In this document: piece after piece, positions 134 through 64,000 of the stretch
How the letters are laid out: every line of letters begins with the position of its first letter
How positions within the stretch are numbered: the first letter of the stretch is position 1
Assembly: GCF_042242105.1 (NCBI RefSeq)
Contig: NC_092032.1
Location: 6,118,415 to 6,182,414 of the forward strand
DNA length: 64,000 nt
Origin: Pempheris klunzingeri
Taxonomy: Eukaryota > Chordata > Actinopteri > Acropomatiformes > Pempheridae
Direction: 5' to 3'
The notes under the pieces: generated by a model
The model's input: the letters and a program-made list of their open reading frames with translations, nothing else
What the model was told of the DNA's origin: nothing
Databases searched by the model: none
Program-made: the position numbers and the translations under genes

Positions 134-5992
<5,859 letters not shown>

Positions 5993-6897
5993 CACAGCCT
6001 GGAGCACACACACTCACACACACACATGAACTGACAAACATTAACACAGATAAACAGCCTTTAAAAAAAATGGAGGGGAATATTTAACAAACCACATCCG
6101 CAGTCAGCCAAGTCATGACTGAGCTATGACTGCAGATATGAGATACAACTAAAATGAATTCATGCCAAACTGAATTCCAAAATCATGTAATGTTGTTGTT
6201 AAAATGTTGTTATTCATATAAAAAAAAAGTGTGAGGAAGACAATTCATATACAGACATCATGTGATTCATTATGGTCGTCTTGTAAATTCGGCAAACACA
6301 TGATTCACTTAGCGCCACATCAGATTAATTAAAATCCCATTTTTCTTCCATAAGGCTGCTGCTGTCGGTGGATGACGGTGTCGCAACAGACTAACGCTAC
6401 AGCTCCCATCACAATCACTGCTAATACTCTTTAATTACGGCAAAACTTTAAGCGTTGTTTTCTGCCGTCTGTCCATTATATAGAGACTTTACTGACGTTA
6501 ACGTAAATTAATTGACGTTACGTTAATGGACCGAAAACTAACGGACCGAGTTGAAACACGTTAACGTTACTAGTAACTACGGCGACACCTTTAAAACGTT
6601 AACGTTACGGTCGTTTCTATTAAAGCAGATAACGCGAAGAGAAAGTCTTCACTTTCTTTAGTTTGAGCTAGTTAATGTTAACTTGATTAGCTAACGTAAA
6701 CTTGATTAGTTAACGTTAACGCCTAACCTAGTGTCAGCTAACAGTCACGTGATACGAAGAAAAGTCGAATACGTTAACGTTACCATTTCAGTCACGTGAG
6801 TACGTAACTTGTAGCTGATAAAAGCTTTACGTTTATATTTATTTTGACAGCGAAAACGACATAACGTGAGCAGGAGCCGTCCCTTGAAGTGTCCTAC

Positions 6898-8929: not shown

Positions 8930-14613
<5,684 letters not shown>

Positions 14614-14679
14614 GGCAGCTTGTTGCGCTGGGATGATCAGACAAAGGCATCATTGAGAATCCACAAATCCAGGTGAGGT

Positions 14680-16227: not shown

Positions 16228-17500
16228 ATGGCGGGGACGGTGTTGGTGCGCTGTGTGAGCAGGACTCTACTGTCACCATCGGCTGCGAAGGGGATCAGAG
16301 GCAGGGGGACACTTCGGTATCGGTGGACAGCTGTGAAGGAAGGAAGGACCTCCGCTGCTCTGACCGTAAATAACCTCGCTTTGTATTCTCACTCTCTCAC
16401 TGTTGTGGTCCTGCAGGAAAACAGGTTGAATGTGGGTGAAAGGGCAGCAGGGCTGAAAGTGCTACCTCACCGGAGAGCTGCTTAACCGCTTTGCATCAGG
16501 ACTCAGCAACACCATCACTGTATCTAAGTGTTCACACGATGAGCAGGACAGGATCATTTAAGGGGAATTTTAGTTTGAAACAGACAAGTGAGTCAGATCA
16601 TTGTGAGTAACAGCCAGCAGCCAGGGGCCACTTAGAGCCTGAGGTGGTCCCCTTGTGTGTGTTTGTTCATGTGTGTTCATGTCACTTCCTTCAGTGTGTG
16701 CAGAGCAGAAGAGCTGCAGTCCTCCTGGGCCTCCCCACACTCTCCTTCCTGGGTTATGAGGCTTATCACAGAGTGCAGAGGTCAGCCGTCGTCCTCGCTC
16801 TGGAGAAAGGTAGCTGGTAAACGCAGTTAGATGGCACACAGGCATGTTTGCCATCCAGGACGGCGTGTGACTGAACTGGCTGTTGTGTTTGGTGTCTGTG
16901 CAGAGGAGGTGCTGGAGCAGGCTGACTACCTGTACAGCTGTGCAGAGACGGAGAAGCTGTACCAGCTGCTGCTGCAGCACAAGGACAGGTCAGGAGTTCA
17001 GCCACTTCCAGTTCCCCTCCTGCCCTCCCTACAAGTTATTACAGTCCAGCCTGTTTTGGCACACTGTATTTATGTGATCAATTTCCCCTGCTTATTTCTT
17101 TTTTATTTTTTTCATTTGGACAGACTGATTCTAAAACTAAATATCTCACTGTGGTAGAGTCTTTACTGGATGCTTCAAAAGGGAAAGGGGGGGGCTGCCT
17201 CACACAGCATGGGGACAAAAATGCTTGAAAAATTTAATAAGGAAGACTAAACGGTAGACACACAAACAAATGTACAAAATATGTATTCTATGTATTTATT
17301 TTTTATTGGTTATACATGTATCTATATATATATGTATATTTATTGTTGTTATGTTTTTTTAGATAAAAAAGACGATTTCCCTTTGTGATATTTACCACCA
17401 AAGGGCATCAAAGTTCAACATTTTATACACATGACCATTTCCATGCATACTGCATCTACACTCTCAGCTGATTTGTCCCATTTTCCTGTGTGTGTGTGTG

Positions 17501-17533
<33 letters not shown>

Positions 17534-19020
17534 CCTCCAGTGACGATGCAGAGTTCCTGTGGAGGCTGGCCCGAGCGTCCCGCGACGTGTCCCTCCTGCC
17601 CAACATGGAGGCCAAGCAGAAGAAGCAGCTGACGTACGAGGCCTTCGAATACGCAAAGAAGGCTCTGGAGAAAGACAACAACAATTTCGCGGCACACAAA
17701 GTAAGACGGCAGCTTCACTGGGAAGGCACGACTGAACTGATCAGGTCTCTAAGCTTCTCTGTGGTGGTGGTGTTTTTGTTCTAAGGGCTTTTGCCACGAG
17801 CGTCAGTGATGACCTCTGTAAAACTTCTTGCATGAACTCGCAACTGCAGAATGTTTCTAAGTTCTTCAGCCTATTATGACACAACAGAGCTTCTTTTACG
17901 ACACATCAGACATCAACATTGTTCCCCTCCTCACACAGTGGTACGCAGTGTGTCTCAGTGATATTGGGGATTACGAGGGAGTCAAGGTGAAAATTGGAAA
18001 TTCCTACATCATCCGTGATCATCTAGAGGTGAGAGGATGTTTGGATCAGTGTCATATTATCACTGTATCACTCATCCATATTTGTAAGTTAAACATGGTG
18101 CTTCTGCTTTTTCTTAGACAGCCATCAGGCTCAATCCCAAAGATGCCACTTCCCTACATATTTTGGGTCACTGGTGAGTATTTTGGGTTACTGGGGGGCA
18201 CTTTCTAAGCAGTGAAGTGACTTTATTTTGGACGTTTCTATCAAATGAGCCGCTTCAACTGTAGTTGTAACAACATTCCTTTTGTCCAAGATTCACTATT
18301 GTGCCAAATAATTCAATTTCTATATTATCGGAGCTTAAAGCGGCTTCTAATGACTTCTCTCTCTCAGGTGCTTTGCCTTCGCTGAGCTGCCGTGGTATCA
18401 ACGCCAGGTGGCTGCTGTAGTTTTTTCAACCCCACCCACGGCCACGTACGAGGAGGTGAGGTCGACGAAGCAGCGTCAGGCCCAACTGACATCAGTTACT
18501 TGTCATTTTTCTGTTTGGCCTGGGTTTCAGACGTCTTTACAAACTCGTGTTTTCTGCCTCTTTCAGGCTTTGGAATTCTTCCTGAAAGCTGAAGAAGGTA
18601 AAACACAGCATAGGAATAAGAAGACACAGAGGACAATACTGCTCTCCTCCAATTTAAACTCTTATGAAGCTTTAAAATGCATTGAACTAAGTGACTAACT
18701 ACAGAGCTGTGTCGTTTCTCCATTTTCCTCAGTTGATCCAAACTTCTACAGTAAAAACCTGATCATGCTCGGGAAGACGTACATGGCCATGAAAGACAAA
18801 GAGAGAGCGCTGCTGTGGCTCACCAAAGCGAAGGAGTACCCTGCTCACACACTGGAGGACAAAGAGGTACGACAGCTTTTGATTTACTGCAGTGTAACAT
18901 AGTTTATGTGTGAGAAACATAAAACATAGAGGAATCTCTATGCGTGAGTCAGCTTACAGTATATTTGCACCTCTGCAGGTCCATAGAGAAGCAGTGGACC
19001 TCCTGAAAAAGCTCGGATGA
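16228..19020 (+). CDS. rmdn1: Regulator of microtubule dynamics protein 1 (10 coding exons)
   Basis: RMDN1 (formerly FAM82B) is a TPR-like helical-repeat protein associated with microtubules and mitochondria. Coding exons: 16228-16365, 16695-16809, 16904-16988, 17541-17700, 17939-18028, 18118-18173, 18368-18455, 18567-18597, 18733-18866, 18979-19020. They total 939 nt, giving 312 residues (human 314). The ATG has a strong context (CACCATGG). The N-terminus is arginine-rich like a mitochondrial presequence, and exon 2 encodes a hydrophobic stretch (LLGLPTLSFLGYEAY). Family signatures seen: EEVLEQADYLY, ETEKLYQLL, LWRLARASRDV, WYAVCLSDIGDYEG, AIRLNPKDATSLHILG, FAELPWYQR and DPNFYSKNL. The exon 1/2 junction is the least certain part: a donor at 16317 joined to an acceptor inside exon 2 would also keep frame. 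The gene faces the copine and converges on wwp1. Confidence 0.92.
17487..17528 (+). repeat. (GT)n microsatellite upstream of rmdn1 exon 4
   Basis: The GT tract, with one interruption, ends 12 bp before the acceptor of the exon at 17541. In the RNA it is a UG tract in the polypyrimidine-tract position. Confidence 0.95.
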
Positions 19021-23471: not shown

Positions 23472-41682
<18,211 letters not shown>

Positions 41683-59942: not shown

Positions 59943-61549
59943 CAACCCATTACCATTCTGGTATGGTAAAAAAAAAAAAAAAAGAAACGCTCTGGCTTGT
60001 TTGAATTTTCTTTAAACCAATCACAATCATCCTGGGTTGCTCTAAGCGCAGGATGCAGACACAGTGATCCTGCACAATATTGTTGGGGGGGGGGCTTGTT
60101 TTGGTGAAACATTTTCTTTTTACCAGCAAAAGTTGTTGTTTGACTTCACACACAGCAGCACTGGAGCTGAGGAACGACCGTGGGACCTTACTTCAGAAAG
60201 AATGTGTGTGGTAGTCAATGGCAAGACAACTTTCCACAATTTTCTACTGTCTTTCAATCTAAAAGATCACTTTGCAAGTTAAAGAAGTAAAAACTGACTG
60301 AAACTGATTAAGTATAAGACTGTTAAAATATGTAATTAGAAAAGACTATGCACCCAAAAGTAGCATAAGTGGCATCAAGATATCCAGCGTCTCTAGAGCT
60401 ACGATGTCTGTGTGTTTCATATCGGGTGTAGTCACAGGGGCAGGTGGCGCATAGACTAGAGGATAGTTCACTGAGCTGTTTCACACAAAACAAAATGATA
60501 TGTTGCTTTTGTCTTTACGACAAACTGTCTCTGAGTACATTAGTGTGTCACTGTGGTTGGTGGAATCCCATCACAAGATGATCTCTAGTTTATCTCTGGA
60601 CATGCAGACAGAGGGAACTAAAACATTCATGCAGACGTCCTGTGTATAGCCTGAATGACAATGAAGCTGATCTTAAATGTTGAAATCCACATATAATGGA
60701 GACTGGTAACAAGAGGAGTAAATAAATATCAAAAAGAAATAAAACAACTATTTATGTTATATGGCTAGTGTATTCTATAATTCACAGAAATTAAATGTCA
60801 CTAATTCTGTGTCACAAGATCTATGTGAAAGATGAAATGGTGAAAGATGAAAAACTGTGGTTGTATCTGCTGCAGTACTTTTTTTTAGCCTTCTACTCAA
60901 TACAACTCTCACATGTGACATGCACAAAAGTTATGACCCTTACTTATGTATACTCCCACAGTGAAGAGGAAACTAGGTCATATAGTTCACTGCATTACTA
61001 TGGTACTGACGTATTGTTAGCAGTTGCTGTGAATATTTCATTTTGATGTGTTAAATAAAGGTAAATTAGTCTGTATATTCATAGCGACAGTACAGACCAT
61101 AGTTACAAATGAACTGATCCGTTATCTGATTGCTGTCAAAAGTCTGTGACTTTTGACTGTCAAAGAATTTCTTTAATCAAATCATTCTCACAATGGTGGA
61201 CATAATATTAATAACGCAAAACAATACAAAACATGTATATGTAGTCACGGGACAATGATGCCGAAACACTGGAACAACCACAATGATAACGATTATACCA
61301 ATAATATACAGTATTGTTCAAAAGAATACACATACGACTTAATACAGTTTAAAGAATTGAAGCTTAAGTATGTGGTGGATAGTTTTTTGCAAGCAGCTGC
61401 CTTTAACAAGAGGTACAAAAGTTATCTTTAAACGTCTTCAAATGTGCATTCGTGACGACGCCTATTGCCCCATTCATATGATGCATCAGTCTGTGTGACG
61501 ATTGTGGCAGCATGGGTGATGGCGTCTCTGTTCACTGGTTTGTAGCGAG

Positions 61550-61555
61550 TTTATT
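61550..61555 (-). other. agrp2: Probable poly(A) signal of the agouti-family gene
   Basis: AATAAA on the minus strand lies about 30 bases after the TAA stop at 61586-61588. This implies a very short 3' UTR, as seen in AgRP-type genes. Confidence 0.55.
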
Positions 61556-61585
61556 TTCATGTCTCTGTTTTGGTGGGCCAGTTCT

Positions 61586-62351
61586 TTATGTTTTCGTCTT
61601 GCAAGCCGGCACTGTCCTCCGGCAGAAGCAGATTGCATTGAAGAAGCGGCAGTGGCATGTGGCACACGGGTTACAGCAGCCAGACTGGGGATAACACGTT
61701 TGAGTGAACTGAGAGCACTTGGACTTCACAGGCGTGGTTACAGCTTCAGAAGGAGGGGGGAGTTTACTTGGGGGAACAGGGATCACTTTGGACTTCTGGA
61801 AGGTGGAGAGGACAGAAAGAGGGAGACAGGGTTGGTCAGAGAGGGAGCGTCAAAATCAAGTGTTACAGTGATACCGTCTCACGTTCTTGTTTTGATTTCT
61901 AACTTTTTATTATGTTGATTGAAAGCTGCAAGCTCTCATTGTGAAGCCTCTTTTTTTTTTTTTTACTTTGTGTGCATGAACAACTATGTCCCAAACTGTG
62001 AAACCAGGGGAAAAAATCTGTTTATTTTAAGTTGTGATGTACCACATGTGTGTGCAAACTGTAGCTGAGCCTTTTATTTATTTTTTTATTGAATTCTTCA
62101 TCGGGACAAAACAAGCCAAAGTACAGTGTGCAATAATTCCAAAAGCTACATTTTTGATCCTTAAAAGATGATAAAATAGGCTCATGTGTTACTGAGCAGA
62201 AACGCTTCCTTTTAACTACAAACTAGAAACATCTGTGCACAATGTGATTGGAGTATAAGGCGAACACATCTTACCGGCACGTGAATCCTTTGCTGTTCAT
62301 ACTGTCCTCTCCTCGCAAAAATTGGTCTCTTTCTGTGGTTCGAAGACCCTG
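61586..62351 (-). CDS. agrp2: Agouti-family peptide, agouti-related protein 2-like; last two coding exons (5' partial)
   Basis: Agouti-family proteins are secreted antagonists of melanocortin receptors. The terminal exon 61586-61795 encodes 69 residues plus stop. Ten cysteines are spaced C-x6-C-x5-CC-x2-C-x2-C-x-C-x6-C-x-C-x6-C, the agouti inhibitor-cystine-knot pattern. The receptor-binding loop CRFFNAIC lies at about 61651-61628. The preceding exon 62275-62351 (acceptor 62352-62353, donor GTAAG, 77 nt) encodes basic text with RKRPIFARRGQYEQQRIHVP, leading into VIPVPPSKLPPPS. Phases agree: this exon ends in phase 0, and a phase-1 exon must precede it. That exon, with ATG and signal peptide, was not found up to 64000 and probably lies beyond the edge. 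NPCATCHCRFFNAICFC is closer to the AgRP type than to ASIP. agrp2 (also called asip2b) rather than agrp1 is chosen for its neighbours wwp1, rmdn1 and cpne3. Confidence 0.88.
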
Positions 62352-63830: not shown

Positions 63831-64000
63831 GAAAGCCCCCCCACCTCTGATCCTGGTTCTGTTCGAGGTTTCCTCACCACTAATACCTGACGTTGCTCAT
63901 GTGGGGATTCTTGAGTCATTGGGTCTCTCTCTTCATTAAAGAGTTTGGTCTTGATCTGCTTTTTATGGAAAGCGTCTTGAGATAACACTTGTTATGAATC
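63830..64000. repeat. Fish dispersed repeat running off the right edge
   Basis: The text 'gttcgaggtttcctc', 'aaagagtttggtcttgatct' and 'gcgtcttgagataacac' is a widespread fish repeat end (usually 'ctgctctatatgaaaagtg' then 'ccttgagataac'). A fragment of the same family occurs at 26790-26920. Confidence 0.55.

Follow-up and report, generated by a model that had tools for sequence, protein, structure and literature searches.

Two exons of Pempheris klunzingeri are very probably the 3' part of asip2a, one of the two fish A2 agouti genes

Fish have two agouti genes of the A2 class, AgRP2 and ASIP2 (Vastermark et al. 2012, PMC3397983), which Braasch and Postlethwait, as told in passages of the same paper, renamed asip2b (AgRP2) and asip2a (ASIP2). 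These passages ascribe an L-F-A-R motif in the second coding exon to A2 proteins and, within the pair, assign an R-L-F loop to AgRP2 and an R-F-F loop to ASIP2. A C-x5-CC spacing of the cysteines is given for fish A2 and C-x6-CC for agrp1 and asip1 (passages of PMC3397983 and PMC3519472), Xenopus AgRP, of the x5 form, being one exception to the rule (PMC3397983). In human AgRP, residues 105 and 129 are the fifth and tenth cysteines and are paired; Asip2 proteins are said to lack both (passages of PMC3519472). Knock-down and knock-out work on agrp2 is recounted in passages of PMC5357965 and PMC9814215. The asip2 passages report expression that was increased in the skin of pseudo-albino sole (PMC6754371) and altered in tilapia brain under a pollutant (PMC9959106), the A2 copy measured possibly being either one in both cases. 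Asip2 is termed an Mc1r antagonist, by citation, in the discussion of PMC9959106, and the passages of the teleost asip2 literature considered here contain no receptor assay of asip2.

We analysed a 64,000-nucleotide stretch of DNA (the window) from Pempheris klunzingeri, a sweeper of the order Acropomatiformes. Two exons on its minus strand are confirmed as the 3' coding part of a real agouti-family gene and, judging from their sequence, are very probably that of asip2 (asip2a), one of the two fish A2 agouti genes. The encoded protein resembles percomorph asip2/asip2a proteins such as sea bass P0002 in knot spacing, RFF loop, FARR linker and clade, and differs in having all ten cysteines, whereas P0002 is without the tenth. 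With agrp2/asip2b (medaka P0149, linker LFAR) it shares C-x6-C-x5-CC and a ten-cysteine knot; unlike it, the medaka protein is shorter (114 aa), has an RLF loop and belongs to a separate clade, and it is to agrp2 that published work ascribes pineal and stripe roles. Human AgRP and ASIP (1hyk and 2kza) also have a cysteine knot with an RFF loop, but they are different genes with one more residue between the second and third cysteine.

Gene structure and the cysteine knot

Table 1 Features located in the window, with strand and supporting evidence.
Feature	Position	Strand	Evidence
First copine gene of a neighbouring pair	287-6013 (approximate)	-	Pfam Copine and C2
Second copine gene of a neighbouring pair	9140-14649 (approximate)	-	Pfam Copine and C2
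RMDN-like exon (regulator of microtubule dynamics 1-3)	17389-17781	+	Pfam 19.2 bits, under the cut-off of 26.7; RMDN1 by eye
WWP1-type HECT ubiquitin ligase gene	23898-38867 (approximate)	-	HECT and WW pieces
Probable asip2a, middle coding exon	62351-62275	-	Splice sites and frame; residues 45-69 of P0001
Phase-0 GT-AG intron	62274-61796	-	GTAAG donor starting at 62274; CCAG acceptor ending at 61796
Probable asip2a, last coding exon including stop	61795-61586	-	69 codons and stop; residues 70-138 of P0001
Agouti cysteine knot with RFF loop; its ten cysteines have A2 spacing (C-x6-C-x5-CC)	61601-61717	-	
AATAAA, possible poly(A) signal	61550-61555	-	30 bases past the stop

The middle exon (Table 1) is preceded by TTCTTTCAG and followed by GTAAG, and CCTTCCAG immediately precedes the last exon. 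Read from 62349, the joined exons form 94 codons and a stop in a single frame with no frameshift; bases 62351-62350 are part of a split codon, one base of which would come from an upstream exon. The middle exon encodes a basic linker with FARR. The first-pass annotation, made from the letters alone, had described two small coding exons in matching phase with 94 joined residues, and the frame indeed continues across the GT-AG intron; the ten cysteines in agouti spacing and the RFF loop that it listed were also found in the joined frame. Its further claim that the gene is hidden by a long frame on the opposite strand held in part. There is a 132-codon stop-to-stop frame on the plus strand (61520-61915), antisense to the agouti exon, which gave no match to Pfam and probably arose by chance, but the agouti exon itself sits within an 87-codon frame without methionine.

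The 94 residues were 100% identical to the C-terminal end of P0001, a predicted 138-aa Pempheris klunzingeri protein with a hydrophobic start, named 'agouti-signaling protein-like isoform X2' in the database. Because of this identity, the window gene is already in public data, as a prediction and not a cloned cDNA, and the gene itself is not new. A search of the 64,000-nt window for exact 8-residue words that begin anywhere in residues 1-42 of P0001 gave none, so the first coding exon, encoding the hydrophobic start, most likely lies beyond base 64000.

Analysis of the 94-residue joined protein with Pfam returned the Agouti family (PF05039) at 36.5 bits (cut-off 27; E 5e-9) which, with the identity to P0001, bore out the earlier assignment to the agouti family. 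The full spacing of the cysteines is C-x6-C-x5-CC-x2-C-x2-C-x-C-x6-C-x-C-x6-C, with the RFF loop; this pattern occurred once in the six-frame translation of the window and in 0/100 dinucleotide shuffles. The nearest solved structures were the knots of human AgRP (1hyk) and ASIP (2kza), at 2e-7 and 1.3e-6. A structure model gave blocks of 86, 90 and 90 pLDDT over residues 101-130, with 75 and 68 at the ends of the knot; it was weak overall (mean pLDDT 66.4, pTM 0.31), the first 20 residues scoring 83 and 79 and the rest poorly. With this weak model as the query, the top Foldseek match was 1hyk AgRP (prob 1.00, E 0.023), with unrelated knot peptides close behind, and none of the 27 matches reached E 0.001.

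We considered whether the two exons could be a decayed pseudogene copy. The window has two exons only, and many relatives are missing one disulfide, both of which would fit decay; the 94 codons without stop or frameshift, the GT-AG splice sites, the presence of all ten cysteines and the existence of a complete 138-aa predicted protein speak against it, and we give this explanation next to no chance. The real gene, of the agouti family, is the reading followed below.

Assignment within the A2 pair

Of 79 candidates in the first protein search, 78 were hits at E <= 0.001; sea bass P0002, with 67% identity across the 94 residues, came second after P0001. A comparison set of 174 proteins was pooled from three protein searches, the third of which scored the 7992 candidates with the most shared words, the best 120 of 199 hits being taken. 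The linker motif is IFAR in the window protein; among the matches listed, LFAR was found in 150/174 and IFAR in 10/174. The spacing between the second and third cysteines, for the 172 proteins parsed among the matches listed, was x5 in 167, x7 in five and x6 in none. Since the x6 spacing is absent from these proteins, the first-search hits are A2 proteins, and the x5 spacing of the window gene itself indicates that it belongs to the A2 pair. The C-x6-C-x5-CC spacing upheld the earlier placement in the fish A2 class. The best hits of the protein search with the 94 residues were neither agrp1 nor asip1, but the other A2 gene, asip2a, which the first-pass annotation had left unconsidered. An identity as agrp1 or asip1, for which it can be said that human AgRP and ASIP are the best solved-structure matches, was rejected on the spacing (C-x5-CC here and not C-x6-CC, with x6 in 0/172 of the parsed proteins among the matches listed) and has a negligible probability in our view.

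To decide between the two A2 genes, we built phylogenetic trees. The trees have no agrp1 or asip1 row and contain A2 proteins only, and so cannot by themselves place the gene relative to agrp1 and asip1. A quick tree had 175 rows (the 174 proteins and the window row); in it, the window row fell inside an 85-row set (SH-aLRT 100) nested in a 93-row set (91), and agrp2 formed a separate 65-row set (SH-aLRT 94). All but one of the 78 first-search hits, an Albula protein, were within the 93-row set (77/78). Forty-nine rows were labelled by database name, 48 as 'agouti-signaling protein 2b' and the medaka protein as 'Agouti-related peptide 2'; 42 of the 49 fell in the 65-row agrp2 set and five (gar, bowfin, sturgeon, tarpon and Brienomyrus) outside both sets.

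Two catfish proteins, P0104 and P0146, are asip2b by database name, yet they have RFF loops and lie inside the 93-row set that contains asip2a. They are possibly misnamed in the database, and their position indicates that the database name does not always track the tree.

In a careful tree of 62 hand-chosen rows (61 of the 174 proteins and the window row), the window row belonged to a 23-row clade at 100/100 and 23 agrp2 rows grouped at 100/97, although the bootstrap of this tree was not settled. Few alignment columns (127 and 133) could be used. Forcing the window row and P0001 to group with agrp2 lowered the log-likelihood by 97.3 (AU p = 0.000285). The loop agreed with the tree: RLF was present in 65/65 rows of the agrp2 set and, among the matches listed, in 0/109 other proteins, and the window protein combines RFF with the A2 spacing, which is the asip2a form and not the RLF form of agrp2. 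The RFF loop, listed as seen by the first-pass annotation, itself indicates asip2 within the A2 pair, following the loop rule in the passages of PMC3397983.

Species with both copies were also compared. The Pempheris protein scored higher against the non-RLF copy in 19/19 species paired by name, 17 of them picked by eye; the other two, Seriola dumerili and Astyanax mexicanus, had the same outcome. Sea bass agrp2 qPCR primers, published in a passage of PMC9739057, translate to AEDTKK and PPQESH, which occur in 10/65 and 6/65 RLF proteins, respectively, and both in 0/109 of the others among the matches listed. Neither peptide is present in P0002, the closest sea bass relative of the window protein. 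As for the salmon agrp2 primers (from a passage of PMC9828751), the reverse primer matched nine RLF proteins and one other, tarpon P0082, and the forward primer had no match in either group.

The gene had been identified earlier as agrp2 (asip2b), the pineal and skin melanocortin antagonist for background colour and stripes. This reading can draw on two features common to both A2 genes, the spacing of the knot and FAR(R) in the linker, and on a WWP1 neighbourhood compatible with an A2 region. The tree, the AU test, the RFF loop set against RLF in every agrp2 row, the paired species and both sea bass agrp2 primers all indicate the other copy; we rejected the agrp2 identity on these grounds and regard it as very improbable. 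Collectively, the comparisons point to the sister gene, asip2a.

Neighbouring genes

The flank of the gene contains two copines, an RMDN-like exon and a HECT ubiquitin ligase gene (Table 1). The ligase piece at 38.6 kb was assigned by eye, without a Pfam match. The vWA pieces of the two copines are 82% identical (67/82) and their N-terminal pieces 56% identical (32/57).

ITCH, which adjoins ASIP in the human genome, was considered as the neighbour instead of WWP1. The WW piece scored higher with Itchy than with WWP1 over the whole sequence (162.5 vs 157.7), but higher with WWP1 than with Itchy by best single stretch (115.2 vs 102.1). The three HECT pieces gave WWP1 as the best by whole score, one of them by 84.4 vs 82.6 only. 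The best stretch of the WW piece and the three HECT pieces countered ITCH as the neighbour, and a flank of WWP1 type, as opposed to the ASIP neighbour ITCH, is a further argument against an agrp1 or asip1 identity. WWP1 is one of three markers for the A2 region of human chromosome 8, and ATP6V0D2 is the agrp2 marker (passages of PMC3397983). In our judgement, the WWP1 flank counts against the asip1 and agrp1 neighbourhoods; it fits an A2 region, possibly that of either A2 locus.

Cysteines five and ten and the proposed function

The fifth and tenth cysteines are both present in Pempheris asip2a, contrary to the trait given in the passages of PMC3519472. We counted these residues in the 79-row quick-tree group that includes the window row (78 proteins, 76 of which were parsed). 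Both cysteines were kept in 18/76 proteins, Pempheris included, and both were missing in 45/76; the tenth alone was missing in 13/76 and the fifth alone in 0/76. The further 14 rows of the 93-row set included one without the fifth only. Since 18/76 proteins keep both residues, their loss does not define the asip2a group. On the tree, we counted 10 changes of the fifth cysteine and 8 of the tenth. An independent-pairs test for coupled loss of the two cysteines was underpowered, with 1 and 2 pairs on the starred branches, and gave no significance. In a tentative scenario, which we consider rather unlikely, asip2a would be a melanocortin antagonist in its own right. Many percomorphs would have dismantled its 5-10 disulfide, beginning with the tenth cysteine, and Pempheris, like some other lineages, would retain the knot of ten cysteines seen in relatives outside the group; the choice of receptor may have shifted along with this change.

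By analogy with its family, the product of the window gene is likely to be a secreted melanocortin-receptor antagonist. The protein would be secreted once the signal peptide encoded upstream has been removed, and its C-terminal knot would offer the RFF loop to receptors of the melanocortin family, Mc1r, Mc4r or Mc5r being the likeliest. Alpha-MSH would be blocked, or basal signalling lowered, and the effect would be lighter skin or an action in the brain. The first-pass annotation had attached to this gene the pineal control of background colour and the stripe pattern of cichlids. These roles are a property of agrp2 and, because they were shown for the sister copy, are not transferable to the window gene.

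The gene is an ordinary one and the correction a useful one, asip2a being the little-studied sister of agrp2. Correcting its identity averts a wrong transfer of function, as the pineal, background-colour and stripe results concern agrp2, and the RFF loop is a quick means of telling the two A2 genes apart. The asip2a group also provides a naturally occurring series of receptor-blocking knots from which one of the five disulfides is missing, and Pempheris is a member that has it.
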